DNA of 64,000 nucleotides, taken from positions 434,001 to 498,000 of the forward strand of contig VUYT01000008.1 of assembly GCA_008802785.1 (NCBI GenBank), in the 5' to 3' direction. Below the pieces are notes generated by a model. The model searched no databases, was not told where the DNA came from, and was given only the letters and a program-made list of their open reading frames with translations. This document shows positions 14,695 through 57,834 of the stretch, piece by piece (positions within the stretch are counted from its first letter, which is position 1; each line of letters begins with the position of its first letter). Origin of the DNA: Symmetrospora coprosmae. Its lineage: Eukaryota > Basidiomycota > Cystobasidiomycetes > Symmetrosporaceae. The translations under genes and the position numbers were made by a program.

Positions 14695-17600
14695 ATGGCG
14701 GGCGACGACTCCTCGTCCGCGTTGCCCATGCAGGAGAGATCCGCGAGCATTGCGCCGTCGGTATCGGTTTCAGGGTTCAAGCTGCCGATGCCGTCGCCCA
14801 ACTCCTCGCCAGCCATCGCGCAGACGGGGTCTGAGGAGAAGGGCGCTGATGCAGCGGATCAGAGCAATGTGGAAGGACAAGGACAGGTTGCCATCCCGCC
14901 CTCGACCGCGGGCGGGATGAGCCAGCAATCCGGAAGTGTCATGGATGAGCGCGACTCGGGCATGTTCACGTTCAACCGGCCGGGAAGTCGAGGCGGGAGC
15001 GACTCGCGTGCGTACACATCGAGCTATTATGCCGGTGGATCGCGCATGAATACCGGGATAGGGATTTCGTATGGCTCGCCATCTACCGACGCCCACGGAC
15101 GGCCATACACAGGACGCCCGCTCACGGCCTTCACGATACCAGAGGAGTTCGGATACTCGGCAGAGCCAGAGACCATGTCGCCTGCAGCGGCAGTCGCGGC
15201 CGCATATCGCGAAGGAAGACCGCCGCCGCCGACGCGAGGTAACCTAGCCACGCCTGTCATCGAGTTGGACGAGCGCATGCGCACAGCGGCTACGATGGAG
15301 ACCGCTATGTACAGTGAAGGAACAAGTACGCCTAATCAGGGCTCGATGAAGACGGAGGACTTGGAGTACGTCATCTTCAAGCAGTGTGGGTCATTTAGCA
15401 TAGCTGACCCATATGTTCAGCAGCGGTTACTCGAAGGTCAACCCAATCGAGGACATGATGGATGGTCTAGACCCAGAAGATCTCATGAAACTTGGTGCCG
15501 AAACAGAATATGCACAAGGGAGCGACCCAGCCGGCGTTTTCGAAGAAGAGGAAGACTCGCCGTTTCCAGAAGTTCGAGCATCTGTCTCGAATTACGATGA
15601 CCCCGACATGCCGTGCCTCACCTTCAGGGCGCTCTTCCTGGGCACTACGTTCACTATGCTCGGAGCCGCCCTCAACACATACTTCCAGATGCGATACCCA
15701 TCGCCTTTCGTTACCCCATACGTCATTCAGGTCATAACGTATCCATTTGGCGCCGCGATGGCACGCTTCCTGCCTGTACACATCTATCGGACACCGCCTT
15801 GGCTGGTACGAAGCGGCTGCCCCGACGAATGGTCGCTAAACCCGGGGCCTTTCAACATAAAAGAGCACGCCATCATTGTCATCATGGCAAATGTGGGCAT
15901 CGTGCCCGCCTTCGGCATCCATGTCCTCCTGGCCCTCGACAAATATTATGGCATCAAGACCGGGTTCGGTTTCGACATACTGCTGCTGCTTTCCAGCCAG
16001 ATGATCGCATTTGTCTTCGCAGGCTTGACGCGGCGCTTCCTTATTTGGCCAGCATCCCTCATTTGGCCACAAAGTCTCGTCACCTGCACTCTGCTCAACA
16101 CCTTCCACGCCGAAGACGACGATGGAACGGACGGATCGCTCAGCCGTTATCGCTACTTCGTTTACATTTTCGCGGGTGCCGCATTGTGGTACTTCATCCC
16201 AGGTGAGCTGACTGATATGTGATGCAAACCAGCGAAACTTGGTGTCGTGACATACTGAAGTGCTCGGTCTCAGGCTTCCTATTTGTAGCCCTGTCCGCTT
16301 TCTCCTGGGTCTGCTGGATCGCACCTCGTGAGATCAGCAATGATGAATTAAAAGTCCTGCTACGACTCGCCTGCTGACCGTACTTCTGGGCAATACGCAG
16401 AAAACCCCATCGTGAATCAGCTTTTTGGGGTCTCTACTGGACTGGGTATGAGCAGTCTCACCTTCGACTGGTCGCAAATAGCATACATTGGCTCGCCTCT
16501 CATTGCACCTTGGTGGGCTGTCGTGAATGTATTCGCTGGCTTTCTGGTCTTCTACTGGCTCCTCTCTCCCATCCTCTACTATACGAATGCAAGTAAAGGT
16601 AGAACTCGGACACACCCTGCTTCAACAGGCTAACTTTCCTTGCCTCTGCCAGACGTGGAATACGGGCTATCTTCCCCTCTCTGTCAATGCCGTATTCGAT
16701 CGATTTGGGAGCGAGTATAACATTACAGCTGTTCTCACTCCGGAACTCAGCTTGGATTTCGAGGCCTACCACGCGTACTCTCCGGTCTACCTCCCGACTA
16801 CTTATGCCACAGTATACTTCATTGCCTTTGCGCTGGCTTCGGCTTCACTCGTTCATACTGCCATCTATCACGGGCCGGCCATGGTCGCCACACTCAAGGA
16901 CATCAGGAAGGCACAGACGGACATTCACGCCAAGCTCATGCTTAAATACAAGGCGGTACCAGTCTGGTGGTTCCTGATCATCTTCGTCGCGTCCATAGCG
17001 ATGGCTATCGGTTTGATAGAAGTGAGTACGGTTAGACACGTTCGCCACAGCCCTCCTCAGATACTCATCGCAGCCTACTGCAACAGGGCTTCAACACAGG
17101 ACTCCCGATCTGGGGACTCTTGGTGTCGATAATCATAGTCGGGATATACATAATACCGGGAGGTTTCATCTTCGCTCTTTCGTCCCAATTGGTGAGTCAT
17201 GTTGGGTGGACCGGGTCACCTTCAGAAAATCCGCCCGGCGGAGTATTCCCCGCCGCCTAGTCCCCGCACGGAGCCTAACGAGCAATCACGTTCCAGATTA
17301 CGGTCAACATACTCGCAGAGAGTATTCCTGGTGTGCTTTTCGCGGCGAAGCCTATAGTCAACATGGTAAGCAAAGTCGAGCGCTGTTCACACGAAGCTTT
17401 GTTAATGCTATGGCAATGCCATCGTGCGACAGATCTTCAAGACGTACAGCGTGCAGGCCATCTCTGCCGGGTTATTTTTCATTCAGGACCTCAAACTCGG
17501 CCACTACATGAAGATCCCTCCAAGAACAACGTTTCTTGGTAAGCTACCGATGTCTCGCGCCTCAATAACTTGGGCTCATCACGCGCCTTGTGGTCCCGCA

Positions 17601-18433
17601 GTACAAATCCTGGCCAGCGTCGTGGCAGCCCTAGCGCAGGCCGGCATGAAGGAAGGCCTCCTGCACGCTGTGCCCGACTTGTGTTCCGAGAATCAACAAG
17701 CTCGTCTAATATGCCCAACGGCCAAATCGGTCTTCAATGCTTCGATCATCTGGTAGGCGACTCTTTCAGGGAGCACCGTAGCACTTCGACTAACGCATTA
17801 TATCGCACTAGGGGGCTCATTGGACCTAGGCGTATCTTCGGGACGGGTTCACCATACGCGTCCATTCTGTGGGCCTTATTGGCCGGAGCCTTAGCACCGT
17901 TGCCGGCCTGGCTCCTGGCGAAGCGTTTTCCCCGCCAGACTTGGCTCCATCATGTCAACTTTCCCGTCATGCTTTCAGGAGCGTCTTACATCCCTCCGGC
18001 CAACGGGATTAATTACACTTCCTGGTTTCTCGGCGCGTTCATCTTCCGTACGTGACTATCACTTTGAACTCTTCGTCTATGCAATTAGACAGCCTAACCA
18101 GGCAGCCTGCATTCACAGAATACATGTTGCGTCGCTATCGATTTCGGTGGTGGTCAAGATATAACTTCGTCACATCGGCGGCCCTGGACAGTGGTACCGC
18201 TACTGGCGCTATCATCATCTTCCTGCTTCTCCAGTTGCCCAAGAACGGAACGCTTCGTCCTGTCTGGTGGGGGAACACCGTGTACAGGGAGACAATGGAT
18301 TGGATAGGCTATCCCAGCAGGATACCGTAAGTGCAAATTTCGCTCGGGTGAAGCAGCAACGGCCCTCCGTTCATACTAACACGATGTGCCGCACAGACCC
18401 GAAAGTGGCTTCGGTCCAACACAGTGGCCGTGA
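14695..18433 (+). CDS. Oligopeptide transporter OPT family, copy 1 (12 exons)
   Basis: Proton-coupled oligopeptide or glutathione importer of the Isp4/Opt type, in the plasma membrane. Exons are 14695-15365, 15421-16202, 16274-16327, 16401-16588, 16653-17021, 17087-17191, 17297-17365, 17433-17538, 17602-17752, 17812-18047, 18119-18326 and 18397-18433; phases close to 991 residues. A disordered cytosolic head of about 240 residues precedes an acidic SPFPEVRASVSNYDDPDMP motif and the multi-pass domain. Typical OPT blocks are NPGPFNIKEHAIIVIMAN, NQLFGVSTGLG, the WNTGYLP loop, LGHYMKIPPR, GASYIPPANGINYTSW and the C-terminal FGPTQWP. The fourth intron (16589-16652) starts GCAAGT, a classic GC-AG donor. 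The start is set by the first ATG in a long open frame. It is the nearest paralog of the gene at 21260-25112 and converges on the repeat-peptide gene with 235 bp between stops. Confidence 0.92.
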
Positions 18434-18668: not shown

Positions 18669-19423
18669 TTACCAGCCGCGGCCGCCGAATCTATTCAGGG
18701 AAGCAGTGTGAGTATCGGCTGGCAGGTATGAGCTGTGAACCATGAAAGTGCACTGACCCGTAACCCGCGCGAACAGAAGCAGTGGTGCTCGGCTCCTGGG
18801 CCTCCGCCTCCGCCTCACGCTTCCATCCTCGTCCACCGAAGCCGTAGCCAGCGCGGACAGTGGCAGTCTCCTGAGGTGCGGCCTCCGCCTCAGCCTCGCG
18901 CTTCCATCCTCGTCCACCGAAGCCGTAGCCAGCGCGGACAGTGGCAGTCTCCTGAGGTGCGGCCTCCGCCTCAGCCTCGCGCTTCCATCCNNNNNNNNNN
19001 CCACCGAAGCCGTAGCCAGCGCGGACAGTGGCAGTCTCCTGAGGTGCGGCCTCCGCCTCAGCCTCGCGCTTCCATCCGCGACCGCCGAACCTGTTATGAC
19101 AAGTAAAGTCAGCAGGTGTCACTCGGCCCCTGAACTGGACGGGCTGAGCGTCACGCACCCGTAACCAGCCCGGACCGAGACGGTGGAATCCTGCGGGGCG
19201 CGCTCCTGTAGAACGGAGTAGTGGAGAGGACAGCACAGATGGCCGGATTTGTATAACATCAGCGGCCTGGACTCGTCTGTGTTTCTGGGCGGTCGGCCCC
19301 ATCTGGCCAATTGGACCGTCGGAGCCGGCCGCATTAGGAAGGCGAGCTGCGCCTCACCTCAATGACGGGGGCGGCGATAACGGAGGCGGCAAGCGCCGCG
19401 ACGGTGAGCAGAGTGAACTTCAT
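18669..19423 (-). CDS. Secreted Kex2-type repeat peptide precursor, alpha-factor-like architecture
   Basis: Four exons, 19423-19358, 19205-19159, 19090-18758 and 18690-18669, join in frame to about 155 residues (10 are affected by a 10-N gap). Residues 1-18 are a textbook signal peptide (MKFTLLTVAALAASVIAA). After a short IEER linker come five units. Each ends in VRAGYGFGGRGW; units 1-4 are followed by Lys-Arg, units 2-5 start with EAEAEA, and the last unit ends directly in the stop codon. The three middle units are APQETATVRAGYGFGGRGW on an 81-bp DNA repeat; unit 1 has APQDSTVS and unit 5 QEPSTTAS in the variable part. KR is the Kex2 site and EA dipeptides are removed by Ste13-type dipeptidyl aminopeptidases in yeast alpha-factor. 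Basidiomycete mating pheromones are instead CaaX lipopeptides, so the role is open: signal, surface or repellent peptide. The ATG follows TATA-like sequences near 19460 and 19545. Confidence 0.85.
18819..19080. repeat. 81-bp in-frame tandem repeat of the secreted peptide gene
   Basis: About three copies of an 81-bp unit encode EAEAEA, a 19-residue peptide and KR. The readable parts of the central copies are the same base for base, while the flanking first and last units of the gene differ at many third positions. The array is interrupted by the N run at 18991-19000, so the true number of copies is not known from this assembly. Confidence 0.85.
18991..19000. other. Assembly gap (10 N) inside the tandem repeat
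   Basis: Ten Ns replace the four bases expected between two neighbouring repeat segments. The frame reads through because 10 and 4 differ by 6. The gap sits exactly where short-read assembly of identical 81-bp copies would fail, so whole extra units may be missing. Confidence 0.95.
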
Positions 19424-21259: not shown

Positions 21260-24200
21260 TCATGACCAGGTCGTGGGCCCGAAACCGGTCTCGGGTGGGA
21301 CTGCGGATGGATGTGCGGGTCAGCCGCGTACATACGTAAGTGGCGGCCCCACTTGCGCGGAGTTCTCACCCATGAACGGCACTCCGAGCCAGTCCGCGGT
21401 GCGCTTGTACACCTCATTTCCCCACCATTTTCTGCAGGTTGATGAAAGCATCAGCAAGATCTCTCTACCGCTTTTCGAGTGCCACTTGCACCCGACTCAC
21501 GGCGTCAACGCTCCCGACTTTGGCAGCTGGAGGGTGAAGAAGATGACAATGGCCGAGATGACTGTTCCGCACTCGAGCGCTGCAGAAGTGATGAAATTGA
21601 ACTTTGACCACCACCGGAAGCGATGTCTGCGCAGCCAGTATTCTGTCGACCACAAGCAGGTACAGCTTAGCCATGGCGCTGCGTAATCTAGCCTTAACAA
21701 GCAGCCCGGCACCCACGGAAGATGAAACCACAGATGAACCAGGACGAGTAGTTGATGCCTGTTGCAGGCGGGATGTAGGAGGCGCCGTTCAAGATCACCG
21801 GGATGTTGATGAAGCGGGCCCAGGAATTGGGCCACTTCTTGATGGCGAGATAGACCGGTATGGGCAGGAGAGCGCCAAAGAGCAGAAAGTAGAGAAGCGG
21901 CTGGTATACCGAGTCGGGACCCAAGAAACGGCTAGGCCCGATCACACCCCTACAGGCAATTAGACACAGCGCATGCGGTTAGTACCCACAGCCTTGCAGG
22001 ATGACCACTCAAGGCACCTACCAGATGATGGAAGCCTCATAGGTGACGGCCGAGACGGGGCAGGTAAGCAGAGCATGCTGGTCTGGTGCACACAGGTCGG
22101 GCACCAGCGCCTCGAGAGCTTTCTTGACGCCAACTTGCGAGCAAGACGAGACAATCAGAGCGACAAGCTGGACTGTATATGGCCGAAGGTGGGCTCTCAC
22201 GATCAGCGGCGGTCGCATTGAAGCTGATGTCAGAAACACTCACCCATGAAAGTCACGCGAGGCGGTATCTTCATGTAATGTCCGAGCTTTAGATCCTGCA
22301 CGAAGTACAGCGCCGACTGGAGGCACTGGATGCTGAATGTCTTGAAGAGCATGTTGGCGATTGGTTTGCCTTTGAGCAGATAGCCGGGTATCATCTCCGA
22401 GATCAAGTTGATGGTAACAATCTGCGCGGTGAGAGCGTAGATGTAGCCGCTAGGAAGGACGTAGATTGCCGGTACAAGGAGGGCGAGCACCAAGCCCCAG
22501 ACCGGCAGCCCAGTCTCGAAAATCTAGTTCGCTAACATGTCAGCCGTTTGCGCCATCAAGTCTCCGGTATCGAGCGCACGCACCTCGATAGCAATGACGG
22601 CGAGGATGAAGAAGATGAGAAAGGACGACCAGTACCACCAGTCCGGGACCTCTGGGTAGTTCCGCATGAGTTTTGCGTGCACATCCTCGTCCTCCTTCTT
22701 GCTCGTGCGCATGCGTAGGAAAATCTCTTTGCCGTTGTTCAAGACAGTGTGTACGATAGTCGCCGAGGCGAGCGTGAAGGAAAGCCCGTACACGACCGCA
22801 TACGTCGTGCTCATCATGAGCGGCGAATAGGCTCGGTAGGCGTCCTCGTCCAGCGTGATCTCAGGCGTGATGACCTGCGACACGTTGTAGAATGAGCCGA
22901 AGCGGTCGAAGTTGCCAGAGGCTGAAATGGGCATGAAGGCAAAGTTCCAGACCTGCAGCAAATCATCAGCATATGCGCATATGCTCCCGCAGACACAGTC
23001 AAAGACACCCACGTTCTTGTAGTATAGGATAGGCGTAAGGAACCAGTAAAGCACGACAAAGCCGACAAAGATGTTGACCTCGGCCCACCATGGCACGATG
23101 AGCGGCGAGCCCGTGTAGCTGATCTGCGACCAGTCGAACGTAAGGATGGACATGCCTAGGCCGGTAGAGACGCCGAACAGCTGATTGACGACGCGGTTCT
23201 CTGGCGCAGCCCAGCATATGAACGAGAATGCTGAAAGCGCCGTAAAGATGAAGCCCGGCAGGAAGAACCAGCAGAATGCGCCAGCTAGGACGTAAAGGAA
23301 GTAGCGGTATCGGGTCAGCGAGCCATCGGACCCGTCGTCGTCCTCTGCGTGGAACGTGTTGAAGAGCGTGCAGGTAACGAGGTTCTGCGGCCAGACGAGA
23401 CTCGCTGGCCAGACAAGGTAGCGCCTGCATATGCCCGCGAAGGAGAAGCCGATCGCGTTGGTTGCAAGTAGGGTGAGAAAGTCGAATCCGACACCCTGCG
23501 GGATGCGGTAGAATTTGTCGAGGGTGAGCGTGAACATGAGAGCGTACGACGGGCTCATCGATATGGACGCCATGATGACGATGACTGTGTGCTCCTTTAT
23601 GTTGAACGGCCCGGGATTGAGACTGAACTCGGACGGGATGATCCCGAACGAGAGACGCTGTGCGAGCTTGCTCGGCCGGAAGATGGTGACCGGGAGGAGA
23701 TACGCCAGCATCTTACCGATGGGGTACGACACGACCTGCACCGTAATGGGCGTAAAGAGCGGGGCGGGGTAGCGGATGTTGAAGAAGAGGTTGAAGCCGC
23801 TCCCCACAACGACGAGGCTGAGTCCTATCACCCAGGCGCGGAAGGTGAGGCACGGCATCTCTGGGTCGTCGATGTTGGAGACGGACGCCCGGACTTCTGG
23901 GTAAGGCGAGTCCTCCTCGTCCTCGAGCTCGAAGGCAGAGTAGGACGAGAGCTTGTCTGGATCGATGAAGTCGTGTTCATTCCCGTGCCCCTCGTTCATG
24001 ACTGGCCCGCCCATCGGTGAGCGCAAGCCGCTCATTCCCGTACCGAACCTGTTTGTGCTATCTCCAGGTACGTACTCGTCCGACTCGTTGATCCAGTAGT
24101 CGTGCCTACCCTCGGTGAGGTGCTGCTGCGATGACTGGTGGTGTTGGTGCGAGACAAGGAGTCCCACCCTCGAGCGGGACAGCCCGCTCGCCACAGTAGA

Positions 24201-25112
24201 TGCAGTGCTCTTCCTTCTTCCGCCCAGATATCCTTTTCGCTCGTCGTTCTCTCTCCCGCTGCCTGGATGGCGTTTCTTGAGGCCGGTCTCGGCGCCTCCT
24301 GACGGGAAGGCCGCCCCCGACCCGCTTGCCACGCTTCTCCTATCGGCGTCGTGCTTGAAGTCGTACTCGGGAGGGTAGGACATTGTCATGGTGGATGCCT
24401 GGCGCATTCTATCTGCGAGCTCAATGACGGGCGTGTGGAGGCGTGTCGGGCTGATATCGTGAACAGAGTGGCTGGGCACGTAGGCGGATGTGTGGTAGAC
24501 GGGCGAGCCGGGGTAAGCATAGGGTTGCCTGCGTTTCTCAGCTGGTGCGTCGGTGCCCGCATGCTGATCGTACGTGTTGGAGGGAGGCGTCAGGCGCTTG
24601 GAAGAGCCGGCCGCTTCTTCCATGTTCTCCTGCTCCTTCTGCTTTTGGTGGTACTCTCGGACGACACGCTGAGCGTCCGACGTGCCCAAACGCCCTCCTA
24701 TGAGCTGCTTGCCCGATACTGCGGTCTTGATCCTGCTGAGCGCGCTGCTGGGCGGCTTTGTCGAAGCTTCTGCGGTCGCCATTCGCGGAGCCGCAAAGCC
24801 GGGCGAGTGCGACTCGTTGAAATGGACGGGAGGGGAGAATTTGAAGAGGTCGTCGTCGTCGTCTTGGTCGTCGTCGTTGTCGTTACCGTGCTGCTCGGTG
24901 ATGTCGTCGATTTCGTGCATCTGCCCAGGGGTCACGCCTTGCAGGTCCCCATCTTTCGAGTGCGGGTGACGCGCGTGCGACTTCTGCACCATCATGTCGA
25001 CGACAGCGCGCGTTTCGGGAGGAACATGATGCGATGCCTGCGATGGTCCTGGCTGTGATGCCTGCTGGTTTGAGCCCGCTGTGGTGGGCTTCTGCTTCCG
25101 TCGCTGGAACAT
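21260..25112 (-). CDS. Oligopeptide transporter OPT family, copy 2 (8 exons)
   Basis: A second OPT importer, 1125 residues. Exons in coding order are 25112-23013, 22952-22584, 22523-22244, 22172-22022, 21949-21717, 21642-21501, 21431-21370 and 21300-21260, with all phases closing. A long disordered head of about 390 residues (poly-Asp/Glu, His and Ser/Thr patches) is followed by the acidic SPYPEVRASVSNIDDPEMP motif and the transporter domain. Blocks shared with copy 1 are NPGPFNIKEHTVIVIMAS, NQLFGVSTGLGMS, LGHYMKIPPR and GASYIPPATGINYSSW; the C-terminus reads FGPTTWS. Exon lengths of 369 and 151 nt are the same in both copies, so they descend from one gene. Copy 2 has a fused large first exon where copy 1 has several introns, and has one extra intron near the end. 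Substrate specificity cannot be read. Confidence 0.92.
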
Positions 25113-35646: not shown

Positions 35647-37919
35647 TTAATGCTCACACAGGCTGTCCCGGATAGTTCTCTGTATCAGCACATGCATACC
35701 ATACCTCATCCAGCACGTCTGCATAACCCACCTGAACTCCCTCTCGTAGATCGCCTCGTTCTGGCTCTTGACAAATTTGGACCTCTCCGTCATCAGAGCG
35801 TCGCGGACTTTGTCTGCGCCCTTCTTGTCGAGAAGTATTTCATTAGCGAGCAGAGTGTCGAGGATGCGGTCTTTGATCTCGGGCGGAAGCGAGAGGAAGC
35901 GAGAGGGCGTGACGCTGGTGCTGTAGAAGATGTCGCGCATCCAGTCTACCTGCTGAGACGGGATGTCGCTGGTCGACAGTACACGCATGGTCGGGTCGCA
36001 GAGGAAGAAAGCAACGATGGTGCGCTTGCCTGGCTTGGTGGGATCGGCGAGGGAAAACGGCTCCACCTTGTGCTGGTAGAGGTTCGGGAAAACAATGGCG
36101 CGTCCTTCTCGGGCGACGAAAGAGCCCAGATACTGATTAGCAGAGGCGTCCCGCTCCAAGCCATACGAGCGGAGGAGGAGCTTCTCCGGGTCGTTCTGCA
36201 TGAACCGCAAACATTGATCAGACTGTTACTCGTGGCATCTGGCGTGCCGGGGATTGGCCTACCTGCTCGTACGGGATCTCCATGTCGCCATCTTCAGCAT
36301 CCAGTCCGAGCCTGAAGCTCAGGCGCGACTCCGTGATGTTGTCGGAGTGAAGATAGTACAAGGCTGTTGCAACGATGCGCTCGTTCAGCATGCCCTCGAC
36401 GTGCCATCCGCCGCCTGCATAGTCTGGCTTCTCGGGTGTGAGGTGGCTATCAGGTAGCGGTAAGATCATTGTGTAAGCACACCTCGACGCAATCCTCGTG
36501 CGCAACAATTCGTGTCTCACATTTCGGCAATCTTGGTGATGAGCTGGATATGTCTGCCATTCAAGCTGTACCCAGTGCCGAGCGATCTGTCTGGCTTGAC
36601 ATAAAGTCTAGGTACGGGATCCGTGTAAAGAGTGGCGATGTTGTCGTTCATCCAGCAAGTATACTCTTTCGGGGTCCAGCCATCGTACTCCCAGAAGAAG
36701 CCGTCCGTTCTGCCGTCGGTCACGCGCTGAGCTTCGGCTGCGGCATTCATCGCGTCAACTTCCGCTTGCTCCCAGGTATCGTCGCCACAGTATTCCTCGA
36801 AGGGCTCGCTCGTTTGCGGATTGATAGGCATGCCAGATTTGTCCGTACTGGATTGCGCTTCTCCCAGCACCGAAGTCCTGTGAATATGGCTGCGGAGATC
36901 GCCAAGCGTCTTGCTGAAAAGCGGGATAAACTTTGCCAGGAGACCCGAGAGCGCGTTGTGCAGTGCGCCTTGATGCTCGGGATTGACGTTGTTGATGTAG
37001 CTCTGAGCCATAACGCGCGAGCCAGTCGAATCGACTTCAAAGTCCGTAGGCAGCCAGGCTGATGCCTCGGAATGCTCTCCGACTTGCTCCTCGTAGCTCA
37101 TCGCGCCAACCTTCATGGGGACGGCTGCGGCTCCGCGTTGAGTCTGACTGAGCCCGTATCTGGTGCAGCTGGATACGCAAGCCGGTGCAAAGTGCTCTTC
37201 AGCCCGCGTCACGGAGAACAACGCTTTGTTCTTGCACGTCTGCCCACTTACTACACGGACGGATGTACCAAGTCCAAGACTTGCTGTTCGGATCCTGGGT
37301 GCCAATCTTTGTCGATGTCTGGGACATCGCGCAGCTTGCCGATCTCGATGACCAACTTCTCGTGAAGCGCTTGCGAGCTGAGCTTCTCCGCTTCCCAGAA
37401 TGTTTTCTGGACGGATGGCTGTCGAGCATGAGGAGAGCGGGAATAGTCAATCAGCATGAGGAGGATGAATAGTCAGTCATTGGCATCCCGGCAGGCTCGG
37501 CGAGACACCCGCGGAGACTGAATCTCCCAGACCGACCTGAGAGAGGGTCTCCGGATCCCGCGCCGCATTAAACTCGGCCAGCTCATCGAGGACGTATCGT
37601 ACGTGTTCCTCCTTGAGTCGCATGAAAGGCGCTCGAGCAGGCTGCGCAAGGGCTTCCTTCGTCCACTTCTCGCGCATGGTCGAGTCGCGATACTTTGTCC
37701 ACCATTCAGGCTTTGAGCTGGATGAGCCGTGAGTAGTGGAAGTGAAGAGCAGGTCTTAGTGACGGCCGGCCAGAGGAAGGCGAGAACGGCAGAGGCCACT
37801 GACCGGATGGCGTAGCTGAGATCGCGCATCGACAGCTCGATGAGGTGGATGGGCTTCTGCCTGAAAGCATAAGCAAGAGCTGAGTCGAAGGGCTCCTCCT
37901 TCACTTGCGTTGCTGACAT
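35647..37919 (-). CDS. DUF4246 protein, copy A (likely 2-oxoglutarate/Fe(II)-type fold)
   Basis: A multi-exon gene starting MSATQVKEEPF at 37919. It runs through IELSMRDLSYAIR, RAPFMRLKEEHVRYVLDELAEF, RYGLSQT and NDNIATLYTDPVP to a block with GGGWHVEGMLNE, then VFPNLYQHKVEPFSLAD and PTKPGKRTIVAFFLCDP. This is the order of fungal DUF4246 proteins. The HxE, the later YQH and the Arg of PGKRT look like the metal and cosubstrate ligands of a double-stranded beta-helix dioxygenase; that reading is inference. With a last intron (donor GTGGGT after EREF, acceptor GGACAG) the C-terminus becomes IYEREFSLCEH, matching the family's usual end, so I prefer it to the unspliced tail. Internal exon ends were not all resolved. 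It is a tandem paralog of the gene at 39198-41326. Confidence 0.8.
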
Positions 37920-39197: not shown

Positions 39198-41326
39198 CTA
39201 GCATTGCCTCTCGTAAATCTCCTCGTTCTGACTTGTCACAAAGCTGGACCTTTCTGTTAAGAGGGCTTCACGGACAATGCCTGCACCCGTTTCGTCGAGA
39301 AGTGTTTCATCGGCGAGAAGGAATTCGAGGATGCGGTCCTTTATCTTGGGCGGGAGCAAGAGGAGGTTGGACGGCGTGACGCTAGTGCTATAGAGGAGAT
39401 CGCGCATCCACTCAACCTGCTGAGGCGGAATATCGCTGGTCGAGAGCACATCTATCGTTGGGTCGCAGAGGAGAAAGGCGATAGTGGTTTGCTTCCCCGG
39501 CTTGGTGGGGTCTGCGAGCGAGAATGGCTCCACCTTGTACTGGTAAATATTGGGAAAGACGATGGACCGTCCTTCTCGCGTATCAATAGCACCGAGATAT
39601 TGATTGGCTGGCGAGTCATGGTGTAAGCCATACGAGCGGAGCATTATCTTCAGGTAGTCATTCTGGCAGCACTCTCGGGTCAGCGATGAACGGAGCTGCT
39701 CAAGCTGCGGTACATGAAGGCCACGCGCACCTGGACAGCGATGTCTCGGTCGGCATCGGGCTCAACTCCGCGTCTGAAGCTCAAACGCGCTTCCGTGAGA
39801 TTCTCAGAATGCAGATAATGAAGTCCAGTAGCAATGATGCGCTCGTTATCCATGCCTTCGATATGCCAGCTGCCGCCTTCGTAGTCCGGCTGGTCGGGGG
39901 TAAGATGACTTCAACAGGTCCGTCCAGGAGAGCGCTCATCAACTCTCGGCGTCTTATCTCAGTGGACAGTGACGACCCTTACACCTCTGTAATTTTGGTG
40001 ATAACCTGTATGACCTTGCCTTCCATGTTGTAGCCGCTTCCGAGCTCTCTGTCAGTCTTGACGTAATCTTCTGGCAAAGGGTCGGTGTATAGGCTCGCGA
40101 CGTTGTCGTTCATCCATTGAGTATATGCCTTTGGGCACCAACGATCATATTTCCAGAAGAACTTGTCCGTCCTGCCATCCGCTAGTCGCTGATAGGCGGC
40201 AGCCTCGTTTAACGCTTCTGCTATCGCCTCCTCGTAGGGAGATTTGGAAAACTCCTTGACTGGCTCTCCCGTCTCTGCATCGATAGGCAGATCGGATGTA
40301 TCAATGCTGGACCGTTGGCTTCCTAGCAATGAGCTCCGGTGAACATGGCTGTGCAGATCGCCAAGCGTCTTGCTGAATAGCGGAAGGAAACCCGCTAGGA
40401 TTGCGCACAGGCCGTTGTGCAATGAACCTTGACTCTCCGGGTTCACGTTGTTGATATAACCTAGCGCTACCACGTGCGAGCTGTTCGAAGTAACCTTGAA
40501 GTTTGTCGGCATCCAGGCGGAGACTCGAGAGTGCTCTCCCATGTCCCCCACCCAACTCATAGCGCCGAGCTTCACGGGAATGGCTGCGGCGCCGGTACGG
40601 GTTTGACTGAGACCGTATCTGGTGCAGCTAGCAAGGTGAACGCCGTCAAGCATGTCCCGCATAGCAATGTGACCACGCGCTAGGAGTCGCCGCGACTCAC
40701 TACATGGAAGGATGGACCAAGTGCAGGACTTGCTGGTCAGAAGCCGATGACCAATTTTTATTGACGTCCGGAATATCGCGCAATTTCCCGACCTCCTTGA
40801 CCAGCTTGTCTCGAAGCAACTCCGGCACCAGATTGTCTGCTTCCCAGCACGCCTTATGGAAGGAAGGCTATCATGACAGCGTAAATAATCAGCTAGCTGA
40901 CCCTACGTGCCCTGCGAAGGCTCAGCGCGATACGAGTCGCACAGACCCGCCTGCGAAAGACTTCCAGAGTTCCGGGCAGCATCGAACTCGGTAAGCTCAT
41001 CCAGTACATGTCGGACGTGCTTTTCGTGTAGCCGCATGAAGGGCGCGCGAGCGGGCTGAGCGAGCCCCTCTTGGAACCACCTGTCGCGGATGATCGGATC
41101 GCGATACTTGTCCCACCATTCGGGCTTCGAGCTATGCAAGGATGTCACAATAGGTTTCAAGCGTGATCAGTGCGGGTCGCGGGCAAGTCTGGAATGATCA
41201 AGCGGCTGACCGAATCGCGTAGCTTAGGTCGCGCATTGATAGCTCAACCAGGTGGATGGGCTGCTGGCCGAAACCAAAGTCGTCCGAGAGGGCGGAGTCA
41301 AACGGCTGATCTTCCGCCTGCGGCAT
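39198..41326 (-). CDS. DUF4246 protein, copy B (diverged paralog)
   Basis: A multi-exon gene starting MPQAEDQPFDSALSDD at 41326, with the same exon plan as copy A: IHLVELSMRDLSYAIR, RAPFMRLHEKHVRHVLDELTEF, RYGLSQTRTGAAAIPVK, GGSWHIEGMDNE, NIYQYKVEPFSLAD and PTKPGKQTTIAFLLCDP. Three differences matter. The histidine of the YQH block is Tyr (codon TAC), the Arg of PGKR is Gln, and the frame ends IYERQC, without the EFSLCEH tail seen in copy A. The rest is well kept and open, so the protein may still be made. If the DUF4246 fold is an Fe(II)/2-oxoglutarate oxygenase, copy B would have lost ligands and be a pseudoenzyme (inference). Internal splice sites are approximate. Confidence 0.7.
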
Positions 41327-41825: not shown

Positions 41826-44154
41826 TCACTTCCTGTTGACCGATCCGGGCAGGTGGTGCTGCTGAATAAAGCAGACGGCCACGAACTGCGAGCGGCGGAA
41901 AGAAGGTTACATCAGCTAATGCAAATGCGTAGCCTGTGTGGCCACAACTCACAGCACAGAGCGCAGCGACGAGGATAAACATGTAGACGTTGTGCATGGC
42001 AGCAGCGTACGCCTCGATGGCGGCTGCGCGCTGTGGGCCCTTGAGCTCCTTGATATAATCGACGTTCCTTCGAATGTTCTCGACAATCTCGGCGCCGTGC
42101 TTGCCCGTGAAGTGACGCTCGAGGTACTTCTTGAGGCTCTGCTGCAGGATGGACGTCGAGATTGCAATGCCAAGAACGGAGCCATTGGCTCGGAAGAGGT
42201 AAGAGACGCCAGTTCTGCGTCGCCCGTACACCAGTCAGCAAGGACGTCCGAACTTGCCCACGATTCAATAGCTTCTCTTGACTCACCCTGCGGCCATGTC
42301 CTTAGGGTCAAGAGCGGAGACTGCAGTGAACGAGCACGATTCAAGGATCAGCCATCTCTTCACGCCCGCTCGCGTGACGATGTCAATGCTCGGTCATCAC
42401 GCACTGAGAGCGATGAGCGTGATCGTCAGGATGGCACCGTAGCCGACACCACCTGGGATCATCGAGAGCCAGTAGAACCACTGGTGCGTCGTTCGGTAGT
42501 CCCAGAAATACATCATTGCGGGACCGAGGACGGCCGAGAGTCCAGAGAGGATGAGGAGGTTCTTGTAGACGCCGGTGCGGCTCATGTAGATGCCTGCAAG
42601 GAGCGAGGCGGTCGACGCAAAGATGGCGTTGGGAATGAGGCGCAGGCCCGCAGCGGACGTGGTGGTCTGCTCGACCGCGGAGAAGTACGTGGGGACGTTG
42701 TAGAGGATGCCAAACTGCGAGATGGTGACGCAGAAGTTGCCGAGCGAGACAAAGAGCGGGGTGCGGTTGAAGAGGACGCGCAGGGGCAGGAGCGGCTCGC
42801 GCGCAACGTACTGCTCGACGAGAAGGAAGACGACGACAAGCACAGCACCCGCGATCAGGGAGCCGTACACGAGCGGCGCACCCCAGGGCAGCTGGTTGCC
42901 GCCCAGCGAGAGGCCGAGCAGGATGAGCGAGATGGCCGAGACGAGAGTCAGGGCGCCGAGGAAGTCGATCCGCTTGATCTTCTCCTTCATGCTGCCCGGG
43001 CCGCTGGGGATGTTGACCTTCCAAGCGACGATGGCGAAGTGGAGGACGCAGATGGGAACCTACAGCAACGTACATCCTTATCAGCAGCAATCAATCAATC
43101 TCGAGGGCCCGCGGCGATGCTCACCTGAATCAGGAAAGCCCATCGCCATCCGATGCCATCACCGAGGTACCCGCCGAGCGGGCCCCCGATGGCTGCTCCA
43201 GCAGCGTAGACGACGTTTCCGAGACCCTGGTAGGTGCCTCGTTGACGAAGCGAGACGAGGTCCGAGGTGACGATGGAGCTCATGGTGGTGAGACCTCCTC
43301 CGCCGATACCAGCGAACGCACGGGCGGCGATGAGCTGCGGGAACGTCTTGGAGAGGCCGCAGGCGAGCGAGCCGAGGAGGAAGATGGCGGACGCGAAGAG
43401 TGTGGCGGCCTTGCGACCGAAAATGTCGGAGAATCGGCCGTAGAGAGGCTGGAATGCCGTCTGGGTGAGCAGGTACGATGTGCCCAGCCAGGCGATGGAG
43501 TTGGATTTGCCAAACTCGGAGCCAATTGTGCCGAGAATCTGTGCATACAATACCGCGACGGTCAGCTAGGAATGCGAGGTAGCTGACATACAGAGGAATG
43601 AGACGGACGGTAGCGACAATGGTACCATCGAGAGCTGCAGTCAATCTGGTCTCATCAGCGTTCTGAGGGTACCCCGTGAGAACGCTTCTGCAGGTCATAA
43701 CGCACCGGCAATGAAGGTTCCGACCCATAGGCCTCCGAGGATGATGACTGTGTAGCAACAAGCAGGCAGCACATCAGCTTGGTTGTACTGCGACCGGCCA
43801 TTCCGCGGACAAGCTGACAGAGGTCGGCTCGCTGAGCAGGCTCTGCGGCATCAGCGCCGGCACTGGGTACGGCGGCCGTCCCAGAGACCTGCTCCTCCTC
43901 GTCATCTTCGTCGATATCGCCAACGGCGCCTACGCGACCGAAGGAAGAGGCATTCGGGTCGAGCTAGATGCGGCGCAAGAAGCGTACCGGGTCAGCCCTG
44001 GAAGTTACGACTGGACGACGCGAGAGACTTTTCGATATTCAACACCCACAGCAACACCGCTCTGGAAGGCACTCCCGTAGGCATCAGCGACCTCCTGCTG
44101 CTCGGCCTCTGAGGCCCTGTTCGAGATGAGCGGGGTTCGCTCTGTGCTGGGCAT
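41826..44154 (-). CDS. MFS transporter, DHA2 / vacuolar basic amino acid (Vba/Fnx1-like) type
   Basis: The start is MPSTERTPLISNRASEAEQQ at 44154, and a disordered acidic N-terminal region follows. The membrane part has the family signatures ALDGTIVATVLPRIGSEF, WLGTSYLLTQTAFQPLYGRF, DIFGRKAATLFASAIFLLGS, GGGLTTMSSIVTSDLVSLRQ with RGTYQGLGNV, and PLGGYLGDGIGWRWAFLIQ. These fit 14-helix transporters of the Vba1/Fnx1 vacuolar amino-acid group. The C-terminus, with a small last exon, reads FVAVCFIQQHHLPGSVNRK. Several short introns break the N-terminal third, and some junctions are approximate. A dileucine-like or acidic vacuolar signal is possible in the head (ERTPLI). It is divergent from the DUF1748 gene over 427 bp. 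Its 3' end is the part copied at 38549-39002. Confidence 0.85.
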
Positions 44155-49928: not shown

Positions 49929-52900
49929 ATGAGCAGCTCGAATGGAGGAACGGCAGCAGCAGCAGCAGCAGGACTGACAGCAGCGGCAACGCCATCAGTG
50001 TGTGGAGATCGCGATTGACGACGTGTGCATCCTCAGACTGATTGAGACCTCGTCCGCTCCTGTGCGCACACGTTCGCACGCATGGCAGTGGCGCACCTTC
50101 AGCTTCTTCAACGCGCAATCCGTCTCGGACAGGCTCGAGCCAGGCAAGACTCCAGAGGTGTTTAGGGTGCGGGGGGATCGCCATATATCGTCGCGCTCTC
50201 CCCCAGGCAGCAGCTGAGTTGATTGCGGACGCTCACCCTCCTCCTCGCCCGCCCAGTCCAGCCCAGAGGTCTCCACCATAGCGGCCGGACAGGGACATGT
50301 CGCCGTCGCAGACATCCACGGCTCGCTCCACCTCTGCAACCCTGACCTCGATGCGACAAAGACCTGGCTCGCTCATCCGGACGGCAGGGTCACCCACATG
50401 AAGTGGGCAGGCACAAAAGGCCTGCTCGTCACGATAGGGGTGTGTGCGCAACGCTCCCACAGTGTGCACAGTGGCAGTCCAGTCCGGCGAAGTAGCTTAC
50501 GCAATGCATCCACACTCTCAGGAAGAAGAAAGCAGTCCCCACCCAGTCCTCAAGATCTGGAACGTCCGGCATGACGACAAGCGGACGGGCGCGCCCCGCC
50601 TGCTCGTGTCTGGGCGGATACAGCACGGCTCGGCAAGCCGCTCCCACCCTGTCTCAACCTTTGCCATCACCGCTTCGCTGTCGCTCGTTGCTGTAGGGTA
50701 TGCCGACGGCTCGGTCCTCCTCCTGCGCCAGGTGGACCAGTACGTCCAGGCCGGCTCGACAAGCGCAGCCGCTGCATCCGCAGGTCTGCCCAAATCAAAG
50801 CTCGTCCACTCGAGCCCCGCCGATCCCATCACGGGCCTAGGCTTCCGGATAGCGTCCACGTACGCTGCAGCCACGTCCAACTTTACCAACACCATTACAG
50901 CCGCCATGCTGGGGAATGGCGGGCGGAGCGCTCCCATTCCTGCAGCTGCCCAATCGGCCGCAGACGGCAGCAGCAAGGGAGGGGAGAGCAACGTCACACT
51001 CTTCATCGTAACGACGCATCAGATTCTCACGCACACGACAACTTCAAGCGGCAAAGCGCTCAGCGGAGGGAGCGCTCACGCAACCGTCATGGACGACGTG
51101 GGCGCGGCACTCGGATGCAGCACAATGCTACCGAGCGGCGAGATGGTACTAGCAAAGGACGAGGCCATCTTCGTGTACGGTCCGGAGGGGCGAGGGCAAT
51201 CGTACTTCTACGAAGGTGAGCGGTGACCTTGACCGGCAGATGGCCCTTCTCTGCGGAATTTGCGCTGATGTCGCCGGGGAGACGCCATGCAGGCGCGAAG
51301 TCGGCCATCGCGACCTACCTCAACTACATCATCATCACCTCGCCGCCTTTCTTGCCGAGCGCTTCGTCCCAGTCTGCGACTGTGCGTAACTTTGTGCGGG
51401 ACCAGCGGAGCGGGACGGCCGGTGCCGGCAGCACCAGTAGCAGCAGCGGCGCCAATGCTTCGGGAAGCAGCCTTGACGCGTCAACCGACATCTCGAAGGT
51501 CGCCATCTTCGATCCCGAGAACAAGTTTGTAGCATATTCGGGCGCTTTCCCAGAAGGCGTCCGCGAGGTGTTCGCCGAGTGGGGCGAGGTCTACGTCCTC
51601 ACGAACGACAGCAAGCTGAGTAGATTGGTGGAGCGACCGACGATGGAGAAGCTGGGCGTCCTCTTCAGCAAAAACCTCTGTAGGTGCTCCTTTCACCTCC
51701 CGTCATTCTCGGCATTGTACCCCGCTGACTTTGGCAATGCAGACCTGCTCGCCGTCAGTTTGGCAAGAACGAGCGGGCTAGAGGAGGGCGAGGTTGCAGA
51801 AATCTACCGCAAGTATGGAGATCACCTGTACGACAAGGGCGACTTTGACGGCGCCATGCAGCAATTCATCAAGACTGTCGGCAAGGTCCAGCCGAGCTAT
51901 GTTATTCGCAAGGTAAGTGCAATCCTTACAGTGCCATGCAGGCACGTCCAGTCATCCGGGACCGGCCTGCGAGCTCAGAGCGGCTCTGACACCCTCTTCT
52001 GACCTGGATGCCGCAGTTCCTCGACGGACAGCGGATAGCGAACCTGACCTCGTACCTGCAGGAGCTGCATTCGCAGAATCTGGCAAATTCCGACATTACA
52101 ACGCTCCTGCTGAACTGCTATGCCAAGCTGAAGGACACAGCCCGCTTGGACGGATTCATCAAGCGCTCCTCGGTATCTGCGACCGGCGCGCTGCCATTCG
52201 ACCTCGACACCGCCATCCGGGTGTGCCGGCAATCGGGCTACTTTGACCACGCCGTGTACCTCGCGGAAAAGTACGACCAGCCGGAAGAGTACCTCCGGAT
52301 CCAGATTGAGGACCGCGATGAATGGCGAGACGCAGTCCGGTACATCCGCGCGCTGCCCCAGGAAGCTGCCGTCGCTAATCTTCGGAGGTATGGCAAGACG
52401 CTGCTTGCCAACTTGCCGGGAGAGACGACGGAGCTGTTCATCGACCTGTGTTGCGGGACCGCCGACAGGCCATCTTCTTCTGCACTCGAAACGGCCCCGC
52501 AAGCGAATGGCGCGCAGGATGTGAGCAGCAAAGACACGGCGGGTCGGAGCTCGTATCTCTCCTACCTCGCTCTCGGTGGCAAGTCCTCCTCACCGGCAAA
52601 TGTCAGTCCAGCAGCGGCCGGCTCTGCCGTCCGCGCCTCAGGCTCCGCTGGCGTGCCTCCTGCCCGGCGAGCGCCACCAGAGCTGGTTGTCTCGGATGGC
52701 AACCCTGCCCGAGGCAATAGCGGTGACAGTACAGGCGCAATGATGGCATCTCCTCTACCTCTCACGGAACCACTGCCGGAAATCCGGCAATTCTTCGCCC
52801 ACTTTGTCGACCAGCCCGCTTACTTTATACGGTTTTTGGAGACCATCGCTGCGCGCCGATGGGGCCAGAGCCTGGACGGCGAGCGTACGTCTTCGACCTC

Positions 52901-54117
52901 GACTTCGCTTGGACAGGGCGTTGCGGCGCGGGCAGGGCCGAGCGATCAGGAACATGTGCATACGGACGAGGCGGAACAGAGGGAGCAGGAGGCTGTCTGG
53001 AACACGCTCGTCGAGCTGTACCTCCTGCAGGCGCTGGGCTCTGGGTCCGGGCCATCCGAGGCGGCTGGAAAACCTGGGCAGAACAGCCGGTCGCAGCTCG
53101 AGGACAAGGCGCTTCGAGTGATTCGGCAGGCTCAGCTTCAGGAGAACGGTGACAGCGGCGGCGGCGGCAATGGCACAGCTTCGCCAATACCACTTGACGT
53201 AACGCAGGCGCTTCTCGTCTGCACGACGGCCGAGTTTGTCCCTGGCATCCTGGCCATCTACGAGCAGCTCGGCATGTACGAGAGCATCGTCCGATTCTGG
53301 ATGGATCAACCCGAGCCCGTACCTGTGCCGACAACGCCATCCCAGCCGGACTCCAGGGCGAGCGCGACCGTGACACCTTCAGAGGAGGTTGTCGCGACGC
53401 TCAACAGGTACGGTCCGGAAGGGCACCTGGAGCTGTACCCCCTCGTCCTTCGGTATCTCACGTCGTCAGCGACGCTCTACCAGCGGCACCAGGCGGACCT
53501 GCTCAACGTGCTCGAGTACATTCATACGGAGCGCATCATGCCGCCCATTGCGGTCGTTCAGGCGCTCAGCAAGACGGGCATCGCGACTGTCGGGCTCGTC
53601 AAGGAATACCTGCGGAAGCAGATTGTCAATGAGCAGGAGGATGTCGATGCCGTGAGTACTGTCCCCTTGATCTATCCTGCCGTCGAGCGGCCATTCCGCT
53701 CGCGCACTGCTGACGTATCGTGTCGATCCGCAAATGCATGTGCAGGACCGCGCTCTCACCGAGTCGTACCGCGCCGACCTGGTGCGCAAGGAACGCGAGA
53801 TCAAGGAGCTCTCGGACCCGCGTGCGCCGCGTGTGTTCCAGGTGACGCGGTGCAGCGGGTGCGGAGGGTCGCTGGACCTGCCCGCGGTGCACTTTATGTG
53901 CCGGCACTCGTATCACCAGCGCTGCCTCGCCGACAACGAGGGCTCGTGCCCTGCGTGCGCGGCGCACCAGGGCGTCGTGCTCGAGATCCGGCAGGCGAAC
54001 GAGAACCTCCGCGGACGGCACGACGTGTTCCTGGAGGAGCTCGACGAGGCCGAGGATCGGTTTGGGAGCATCATTGATGCGTTTGGGAGGGGCATTGCGC
54101 GGCCATCGGAGGAGTAG
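49929..54117 (+). CDS. VPS11: HOPS/CORVET tethering subunit Vps11 (Pep5)
   Basis: A core subunit of the HOPS and CORVET complexes that tether membranes at endosome and vacuole. Exons 49929-49997, 50089-50157, 50269-50439, 50522-51215, 51293-51679, 51743-51912, 52017-53651 and 53746-54117 close to 1188 residues. The start after a poly-Ala head is [12 protein letters not shown], the usual WRxFxFF opening. A WD-like beta-propeller follows ([36 protein letters not shown]), then the clathrin-repeat solenoid ([39 protein letters not shown]). The C-terminal zinc finger is [20 protein letters not shown]...CPAC. Poorly conserved Ser/Ala/Gly-rich insertions between 52480 and 52760 and near 53140 lengthen it beyond the yeast protein (1029 residues). 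Confidence 0.93.
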
Positions 54118-54452: not shown

Positions 54453-55422
54453 TTATGATACACGACAAGTTGCACGAAAGACGGAGGAGGGGAAAGCCGG
54501 ACGACGGCCTCGAGTGCGGAGGACGCTGGAAGGCACAAGGAAGCAGCTCGTCAAGCATCTACCGCCCGCCGCTGCTATCGCCTCCCTGAGTATTGGGATT
54601 ATTCCCAAGGATGCCCTTGAACCAAGATCCCCAGCTCTGCCCTGACCCCTGCGTCTGGCTCGTGGTGGTCTTTGCGCTGTCTGGGTTGAGCTCGCGCTCA
54701 ATCTCCGCGACGAGCATCTGGAAGGCGCTGATGACGTTGTCGTTGTGCTTTGCGGACGCCTCGGTGAAGGCGCTCCCGAGGCGCTTTGCGAGCTCCTTGC
54801 CCTGCTCGGTCGACACGGTGCGCTGCTGCTCGAGGTCCGACTTGTTGCCGACAATGCACAAGGGCACCTTGTCGACTCCGCTGTAGGACAGGATCTTGTC
54901 GCGGATGATGGGGACCATCTCGAACGATGCTTTGCTGGCGACAGAGTAGACAATCACGTAGCCGTGCCTGTGGGGAGCCGTGTACCATCAGCTCCTGGAC
55001 ACTGCGACAGCAGCAGGTCGGCCATCCGGGGTCAGGGATCGATCGCACGTACCATCCCACGGCATACTTTGCATTGAGCAAGCTGAACTCGTCGTGCCCC
55101 GCCGTGTCCTGGATCTCTAGCTGGTATTCTTTGCCCCTGTACTTGAACTCCTTGCTGAAGCTCTCCTCGATGGTGGGGTAGTACGAATCGACAAAGTGGT
55201 TGTCGCAGAACTGGACCGCGAGGGACGACTTGCCTACGCTCCTCGACCCGAGCAAGGCAATTTTGCGCTGGCGCGGTGGGACGGGCTTGCCGGATGGTGT
55301 CGTGGCTGCCGTGGCTGCCAGCGGTGCGGGTCTGCGCGGTGCGACGTGTCACGATGAGAGCTCTGGAGGCGGAGCGGCAGGTTTGACATATGTGCGACCA
55401 CCTACCTATCCTTTGGGGCCAT
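54453..55422 (-). CDS. RHB1: Ras-family GTPase Rheb (TOR activator)
   Basis: A Rheb-type small GTPase, upstream of TORC1. The start is MAPKD at 55422 (17-nt first exon). G1 is GSRSVGKSS, with the Arg and Ser typical of Rheb; the switch I region is YYPTIEESFSKEF; G3 is DTAGHDEFSLLN; G4 is NKSDL; G5 is SAKHN. The effector region and the HDE in place of QEE after DTAG mark it as Rheb and not Ras. The long exon would end GGDSSGGR followed by TAG at 54561-54559, without a lipid anchor. A 37-nt intron (54562-54526, GTAGAT to CCAG) restores frame into an exon ending CRVS before the stop at 54453, which is an acceptable CaaX box. I take that spliced end as likelier. It is divergent from the kinase gene. 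Confidence 0.88.
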
Positions 55423-56086: not shown

Positions 56087-57834
56087 ATGTCCTTCAAGCA
56101 AGAGCCAGGCGTGGCCACCTCGACCTCGGCAATCCGGTCCGTCCGAGTTGCCCGGTGGAGAAAGGTGTAGGCAAAATGTCGATAGACTGACACACTGAGC
56201 GCTCCACAGCCAGGGCATTGACGAGAAGAAGCTGGTGCGTGCGGGCCAGCTCCCCTTGACTTGCTGCCGCATACTGTCAGAGGCTCATCCAGCTGTCTCT
56301 CTCCGCATCTCGGCACCTACGTTCTGTACCGGCACATCCCAAAGAGCGACTACATCAAGGCAAACGTACCCGCCATCCGCCTTCCCGTCTCCATAAAGCA
56401 GTTCCGCTTCGGCCAGTCCAATCCTACCTACTTCCTCACGGATGCATCCGGCACGAAATATGTCATGCGAAAGAAGCCCCCGGGCAAGCTACTCTCAAAG
56501 ACGGCGCATGCCGTGGAGCGAGAGTACAAGATCATGAAGGCACTCGAGAAGACGGATGTTCCCGTGCCAAAGATGTACTGTCTGTGAGTGGATCATCCCC
56601 GGTCGGGCGAGCCGAGGTAGCGACCTTGTGAACTAGGTGCGGTTCGCTGACCGAGAAGAACGCTCATCCATGTCGGCTACAGCTGCGAAGACAACGACGT
56701 CTTAGGCTCTCCCTTCTACATCATGGAGTTCGTCGATGGCCGCATTTTCGCCAACGTACATCTCCCAGAGATAAAGACGGACGCAGAACGCCGGCAGATG
56801 TGGGTCGAGCGTGGCGGAACATGCTCTTCATGTGCGAATGCGCACAGGTCTCAGGCGCTAATGCCATGTCTGCGCTCTGCGTGCGTGTGTGGTCCTGCTC
56901 GCAGCTGGCACTCGACCATCGACGTCCTCGGCAAGCTGCACCGCGTCGACTTCCGCGCCGTAGGCCTGAGCGACTACGGCTCGCACAAGGACTTCTACCC
57001 GCGCCAGATAAAGTCGCTCGGGAGCGTGTCGGCCGCACAGGCTGCAGTGCGGGGCAAGGACCCAGAGGACGGCAAAGAGCACGAGGTCGGCAAGATTCCG
57101 GGACAGGATCACCTGCTCAAGTGGTATGCGCAGAAATGCCCCACGGGGGAGCTCACTCTCGTCCATGGGGACTACAAGCTGGACAACTTTGTGCGTTGCC
57201 GCTGTCTATACCGTACCTCTGCACAGCTGGCCAGGGAGCTTTGAAGCTGGATTGACCTTGGTTCAACGCCTCCTTCCATTGTGCGTGTTCCGCGCAGATC
57301 TTTCACCCTACTGAACCTCGCATCGTTGCCGTCCTGGATTGGGAGCTGTCGACGCTCGTACGTCGCGCCTTGCTCGCAGCTCTGTAGGTCTGCGACATCC
57401 GGGCTGACCATGCCGGCATGCTCGCGCGCATACAGGGCCACCCTCTCTCGGACCTTGCGAACCTCCTGCAGCCTTTTGAGATCGACCACCGCGGCCTCGA
57501 GGACAGCGTCGTCAGCGGGCTCGCCAACGCCCCGCGAGCGGCCGGGTCGGAAGGGCCTCCGCCGGCGGAAGAGCTCGTCGCGCTGTACTGCCGGACCGTG
57601 GACCGCGCATACCCGATCCCAGGCTGGCGCGTCGCAGTCTCGTTCTCGGCGTTCCGCCTCGCCGTCATTCTGCAGGGCATCGCCGCGCGCGTCCTCACGG
57701 GCCAGGCGAGCAGCGAGCAGGCGAAACAGGTCGCAAAGGGCTTCCCGCCGCTGGGGAGACTGGCCGACAAGATTGCTCAGGAGACCATCGAGGCGGAGAA
57801 GAAGGAGGAGCTGAGGTCAAAGGCAAAGCTGTGA
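56087..57834 (+). CDS. APH/ACAD10-11-like phosphotransferase, predicted peroxisomal
   Basis: A protein-kinase-fold phosphotransferase of the aminoglycoside phosphotransferase (APH) family, closest to the N-terminal domain of ACAD10/11. The start is [20 protein letters not shown]. Conserved parts are [19 protein letters not shown] (nucleotide-binding lobe), [14 protein letters not shown] with the ATP-site Lys, [12 protein letters not shown], the catalytic loop [11 protein letters not shown] (HGD, Asn) and the metal motif VLDWELSTL. The last helical part ends ELRSKAKL: the tripeptide AKL is a type-1 peroxisomal signal. In animals ACAD10/11 kinases phosphorylate 4-hydroxyacyl-CoA; a role in breaking down hydroxy fatty acids would fit a peroxisomal location (inference). 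There are about six exons. The intron after DEKKL probably ends at CCCAAAG before SDYIKANV, but other acceptors compete. Confidence 0.8.

Follow-up and report, generated by a model that had tools for sequence, protein, structure and literature searches.

A tandem-repeat, alpha-factor-like peptide precursor gene between two oligopeptide transporter genes in a basidiomycete genome

Results

Structure of the precursor gene

The window, by which we mean the whole 64,000-nucleotide stretch of DNA analysed here, contains at 18669-19423 a four-exon gene on the minus strand that, according to a splice model, is intact except for one gap. An initial annotation had placed a peptide precursor at exactly these coordinates, and both ends hold, with the ATG at 19423-19421 and the stop codon TAA at 18671-18669. 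Exon 1 (19358..19423) encodes a predicted signal peptide, MKFTLLTVAALAASVIAAPVIE, residues 3-18 of which have a mean Kyte-Doolittle hydropathy of 2.23; judged by hydropathy and by eye, the hydrophobic run is followed by a small-residue cleavage context. Intron 1 (19206..19357, 152 nt, phase 0) separates it from exon 2 (19159..19205), which encodes ERAPQDSTVSVRAGYG and the opening part of unit 1. Intron 2 (19091..19158, 68 nt, phase 2) lies within the last Gly codon of GYG, after which exon 3 (18758..19090) encodes the end of unit 1, units 2-4 (each KR-EAEAEA-APQETATVRAGYGFGGRGW) and the start of unit 5 (QEPSTTASVRAGYG). Finally, intron 3 (18691..18757, 67 nt, phase 2) interrupts the same codon as intron 2, and exon 4 (18669..18690) supplies FGGRGW and the stop; all three introns are of the GT-AG type. 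The spliced product reads MKFTLLTVAALAASVIAAPVIE-ERAPQDSTVSVRAGYGFGGRGW, three times KR-EAEAEA-APQETATVRAGYGFGGRGW, KR-EAEAEA-QEPSTTASVRAGYGFGGRGW and the stop, and thus includes the signal peptide and the very short linker described earlier, while the closing of the last unit at the stop codon is borne out by exon 4 (FGGRGW-TAA). The units end in VRAGYGFGGRGW and are near-identical copies set between dibasic sites, with four KR sites and five assembled units.

The KR sites and EAEAEA spacers of the five units first reported are present, but five is the assembled number only. Unit 2, the first of the three KR-EAEAEA-APQETATVRAGYGFGGRGW units, contains a 10-N assembly gap (18991..19000), as would be expected where near-identical 81-bp units defeat assembly, and the gap makes the number of units uncertain. 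This run is the sole stretch of N in the window and is located within the repeat array. In P0001, which is the same gene from another assembly, three units are visible, which may reflect either real variation or a collapse of the repeats in a contig of 2.7 kb.

Pairwise comparison of the cores of units 1, 3 and 5 gives 6, 6 and 8 differing sites, with 0 nonsynonymous differences; across the core, units 3 and 4 share the same DNA sequence, as does unit 2 as far as it can be read, and these were counted once. Under a uniform mutation model a synonymous-only pattern would arise by chance with a probability of 5e-4 to 4e-5 per comparison. Together with the three frame-restoring introns, this pattern identifies the repeat precursor at 18669-19423 as a selected coding gene, and the precursor is well supported. 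Since introns 2 and 3 fall within a core codon of units 1 and 5, the absence of nonsynonymous differences also supports the splice sites. The codon is the same in both units (the last Gly of GYG), and units 2-4 have no intron; from the intron pattern as compared with that of the homologue described below, the intron-less units are probably a later expansion.

Predicted processing

The KR sites are followed by EAEAEA in units 2-5 and then by AP in units 2-4 only; in unit 5 the Gln comes straight after EAEAEA, as it does after EAEA in the homologue. The gene is well supported as an alpha-factor-like precursor whose sequence appears built for processing by Kex2 and Ste13. In the secretory pathway, Kex2 would cut after KR, a Kex1-type carboxypeptidase would then strip the KR, and a Ste13-type dipeptidase would strip the EA pairs and then AP. 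Ste13-type peptidases take off both X-Ala and X-Pro (PMC9769878), so that AP would be trimmed after the EA pairs and leave a Gln start. The products would be linear peptides with a Gln start, probably as pyroglutamate, and a Trp end, namely QETATVRAGYGFGGRGW of 17 residues from the middle units, QEPSTTASVRAGYGFGGRGW of 20 residues and perhaps QDSTVSVRAGYGFGGRGW of 18 residues, and the predicted form with the Gln cyclised would be pyroGlu-ETATVRAGYGFGGRGW. The secreted peptide of about 19 residues proposed in the initial annotation thus keeps its ending, GYGFGGRGW, but the predicted length for the middle units is 17 if AP is trimmed. Comparable termini are known from a Coprinopsis precursor expressed in Pichia, for which mass spectrometry revealed a Gln or pyro-Gln start and a Trp end, and Trp-ending peptides have been detected in oyster mushrooms (PMC9769878).

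The genome has one P-domain locus, next to which subtilisin-like sequence and a membrane span can be made out by eye, and one DPPIV_N locus, at C15, with a GWSYGG motif likewise seen by eye beside it. From these motifs we take the former to be a candidate Kex2 and the latter a candidate Ste13-like enzyme. S10 carboxypeptidases, candidates for the Kex1 role, account for 21 matches at several loci. The precursor carries a Ste13 signature, with XA/XP dipeptides after the dibasic sites and the one DPPIV_N locus in the genome, and the alpha-factor-like plan of Kex2/Ste13 type recognised earlier is well supported.

Relatives of the precursor

A protein search, which scored the 8000 candidates with the most words in common, returned 11 proteins at E up to 1. 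P0001 (E 1.8e-31) is the same gene from another assembly; its listed identity is just 51% because its translation is unspliced, and the exon parts it has in common with the window are nearly identical by eye. Exons 1 and 3 stand in one frame in unspliced P0001, whereas in the window they are out of frame (introns 1 and 2 total 220 nt), and from the unspliced translation the two assemblies look to differ by about 2 nt in length near the start of intron 1. P0003 and P0006 represent one diverged homologue, and repeating the search with masked EA spacers (1070 candidates) returned P0001, P0003 and P0006 and nothing else. A search for KR-EAEAEA together with the core had been put forward for smut and Exobasidium genomes when the gene was first noticed; the protein searches yielded the same gene and a diverged homologue.

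P0003 has the same exon-1 plan as the window gene (MKLTILAVVAMAASVMAAPVVE). The unit of the homologue is KR-EAEA (or EAEP)-QETATVRGAGG/YGWRGW, with 17 residues, of which 12 are identical by eye to the QETATVRAGYG/FGGRGW of the window. In the unspliced translations, the intron of the homologue appears to break the unit at the residue that matches the one in the window gene. P0003 ends in MAGMEA, which can be explained as the next GWRGWKR in a shifted frame, being 1 of the 436 shifted hexapeptides derivable from GWRGWKR among 64 million; each unit of the homologue thus probably contains an intron. An intron apparently lies in each unit visible in the homologue, and in the window gene in the first and last units only.

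The remaining proteins were dropped as relatives: P0002, P0004, P0007, P0008, P0010 and P0011 look like animal proteins by eye, and P0005 and P0009 are ascomycete proteins with KREAEA spacers and different cores. Scans of viral and prokaryote contigs gave 21 and 226 pattern matches, respectively, with 0 confirmed in either. Across the genome there are 12 places of KREAEA type, against 3 for the reversed pattern, and 4 of the 12 are inside the precursor gene. The 8 other places yielded no paralogue, 6 having a KREAEA-bearing frame of at least 40 aa with no repeated units and 2 (L006 and L008) lacking such a frame. A weak protein match on C22 (E 0.1) was rejected as a paralogue, being without KR repeats.

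Two oligopeptide transporter genes flank the precursor

The picture of the locus given in the initial annotation left out its most informative feature, the two flanking oligopeptide transporter (OPT) genes, which were identified by Pfam and splice models. OPT-A (15521..18433, plus strand) has 9 modelled introns and one near the 3′ end; its N-terminal start is unfixed, homology being seen from 15521. In the spliced model it ends at 18433, 235 bp from the precursor stop and convergent with it. OPT-B (21260..25112, minus strand) runs from 25112 to 21260 on the same strand as the precursor and ends 1836 bp upstream of its ATG. The interval from the precursor to the OPT-B end contains three frames of at least 150 aa, none with a Pfam match.

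A profile search of the 20 Mb genome found at least 15 stretches matching OPT, at four or more loci, of which those seen are the two precursor flanks and single loci on C76 and C44. Unspliced frames across the window, and across 8-9 kb on either side of the other two OPT loci, were scanned for dibasic sites with repeated flanks, and no repeat precursor was seen near the latter. Four frames came up, namely the precursor, a second frame of its array and, in L053, two Arg-rich frames of low complexity. With four OPT genes and an assumed 6000-8000 genes, a random gene would have an OPT neighbour with a probability of about 0.1%, and the precursor is flanked on both sides; this arrangement was spotted post hoc, in one genome.

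Further along the window, the DUF4246 frames at 36520-37446 and 39982-40902, both on the minus strand, look like a tandem duplicate, and MFS transporter frames with TRI12/efflux-type matches lie at 42400-43565 on the minus strand. Genes for a VPS11-like protein (51990-54074, plus), a Ras-family GTPase (54701-55348, minus), an APH-family protein (56651-57241, plus) and an RTA1-like protein (58629-59078, minus) make up ordinary fungal surroundings.

History of the transporters and relation to Cryptococcus Opt1

Among the matches listed, the best named ones to OPT-B are from Cystobasidium and other Pucciniomycotina. Smuts and Exobasidium, which had been suggested as the lineage to search, therefore look wrong, and kinship with them was set aside for a Cystobasidiomycetes-like placement that is based on one gene family. 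The OPT tree comprises 39 rows, of which 36 were chosen from 120 listed of 1766 matches and the others are OPT-A, OPT-B and OPT-D; OPT-C, too distant, stands outside it, and the midpoint root serves for drawing. OPT-A groups with Cystobasidium P0031 (100/100) and OPT-B lies in a clade with Cystobasidium P0013 (99/95), which implies that the duplication predates the split from Cystobasidium. P0013 and P0031, which belong to Cystobasidium minutum and are each from a contig of 3317164 in length, are probably on one contig. A separate clade (100/99) unites 16 rows from Sporobolomyces, Rhodotorula and Leucosporidium, and OPT-D has a very long branch. The OPT genes of S. carnicolor bear the consecutive tags 004946/004947. 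In Sporobolomyces ruberrimus the OPT genes P0030 and P0036 have the tags 000242/000244, and the gene between them may code for a peptide precursor.

The C. neoformans protein P0060 falls among Agaricomycotina in a 19-row clade (100/100) that also contains OPT-A and OPT-B. Residues P358, M484 and W932 are reported for CNAG_03013 (PMC8092252), and all three are matched by P0060, as the one protein out of 58 long enough to test, so that P0060 is taken to be the Cryptococcus neoformans Opt1. OPT-B is 53% identical to it, OPT-A 52% and OPT-D 31%, and OPT-C gives no match. OPT-A and OPT-B are accordingly Opt1 homologues, P0060 being the one Cryptococcus OPT in the sample. Opt1 imports the quorum-sensing peptide Qsp1, which is secreted and matured and needs Opt1 to act; cytosolic mature Qsp1 complements its loss, and intracellular action was inferred by the authors (PMC7537855). 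Qsp1 has 11 residues and a Trp end (PMC5959062). The precursor core resembles Qsp1 in composition only, with 4590 of 5000 shuffles doing as well, and kinship between the two was rejected, the score not being above that of shuffles.

Discussion

The arrangement of the locus would fit a secreted autocrine peptide linked to its own importers, a reading to which we assign a probability of roughly 0.4, with import and function proposed from one genome. Under this model the mature peptide, or a shorter fragment such as the ten residues that follow the first Arg, would be re-imported via one or both of the flanking OPTs and would signal density or self within cells of its own species, like Qsp1 through Opt1. 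Secretion, import and signalling by the peptide are each steps that we infer from the gene and its neighbourhood. Most OPTs transport nutrients or glutathione, and a peptide of 17 residues would be a long substrate for them, both of which speak against import; the two nearly adjacent OPT genes could also be old duplicates with a peptide gene inside by chance. A precursor between two Opt1 homologues suggests a testable self-signalling unit, in which the peptide would enter through the OPTs and change gene expression. A wider and more doubtful proposal is that a multi-copy secreted peptide gene beside its own importer genes constitutes a fungal autocrine cassette, and that those alpha-factor-like peptides of basidiomycetes that end in Trp may serve as signals taken up by cells, not as pheromones sensed by a surface receptor. 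If true, such a cassette would parallel, in a eukaryote, the export-import quorum sensing of bacteria.

It is also conceivable, though unlikely, that the product is secreted as a hormone or pheromone and sensed by a GPCR at the cell surface, with the OPT neighbours either irrelevant or clearing spent peptide. The precursor shares its plan with the ascomycete alpha-pheromones, and GPCR sensing of such precursors was proposed by Le Marquer and co-authors (PMC6339444); the double OPT flank, however, would be left unexplained. The genome gave no match to the STE2 or STE3 families in searches without a working control for either, and these negatives are weak, since STE3, which is expected in a basidiomycete, was missed too. 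Distinctly unlikely is that OPT-A and OPT-B are a nutrient-uptake pair with the precursor between them by chance and a separate role for the peptide. The pair does have a history of its own, given that the duplicates are old and shared with Cystobasidium, and consecutive or near-consecutive OPT locus tags occur in Sporobolomyces as well, whereas even one OPT neighbour is improbable for a random gene and the precursor has two. Least probable is a surface-active, structural or antimicrobial peptide, resembling Ustilago Rep1 or acting on neighbouring organisms, to which the Gly- and aromatic-rich, slightly basic core, the effect of the Kex2-processed Rep1 repeat peptides on the hyphal wall and the Coprinopsis kep deletions (no detectable phenotype, with a role towards the biotic environment suggested; PMC9769878) would be congenial, but Rep1 is without a Ste13 signature (PMC6339444) and its peptides have 37 residues, against the 17-20 and the fixed Trp end of the window units.

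Returning to the autocrine reading, the precursor itself belongs to a kind already known in Basidiomycota, as Kex2-processed repeat proteins (KEPs) with a Ste13 signature, some of them Trp-ending, have been described there (PMC6339444, PMC7329392, PMC9769878). The earlier statement that the peptide is not recognised from any described family hence stands for the core, which was absent from the literature searched, and fails for the kind. Six Ste13-signature examples of PMC6339444 were re-used by PMC7329392, and one identifier begins with Mixos1. Four pieces of the core gave no match in literature text. The Mixos1 identifier presumably stands for Mixia osmundae, a Pucciniomycotina. Linkage of a precursor to OPT genes is not described in the titles, the beginnings of abstracts and the passages of KEP papers among the matches listed. 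The role of alpha-factor-like peptides in basidiomycetes, which mate by lipopeptides, is a stated open question (PMC6339444, PMC9769878).

Compared with the known systems, the window gene first of all shares with ascomycete alpha-factor the KR-EAEA plan, the tandem units and the closing of the last unit at the stop codon. It differs in its very short pro-region and its peptide, and neither MF_alpha nor MF_alpha_N is among the Pfam matches of the precursor at E up to 1, with filters dropping most weak matches. The C-terminal CaaX of basidiomycete mating pheromones is absent, the precursor ending in GGRGW. Next, Kex2-processed repeats and a Tyr in the core are common to the dikaritins of the ustiloxin type, but the Ste13 spacers of the window gene are lacking in ustiloxin-type precursors (PMC6339444). 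Among KEPs resembling six putative Basidiomycota pheromones, 17 of 76 have a DUF3328 (UstYa) gene nearby (PMC7329392), so that some products of this kind may be cyclised; a genome search for UstYa, without a working control, found no match.

The basidiomycete Ste13-signature KEPs have the same signal peptide, cores between dibasic sites and XA/XP spacers (PMC6339444, PMC9769878), and several of the detected peptides have a Gln start and a Trp end like those predicted for the window. The window gene differs from them in its core sequence, its 17-residue length and the intron inside the unit, and it has two OPT neighbours, which go unmentioned in the relevant passages of three KEP papers. Finally, Qsp1 and Opt1 offer a secreted, processed, Gly-rich and Trp-ending peptide and a transporter 52-53% identical to the flanking OPTs (PMC7537855, PMC5959062), while Qsp1 differs in having 11 residues, in being matured outside the cell by Pqp1 and in a core unlike that of the window beyond composition. 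In its anatomy the window gene resembles a secreted alpha-factor-type precursor, and judged from its neighbourhood it may act like Qsp1.
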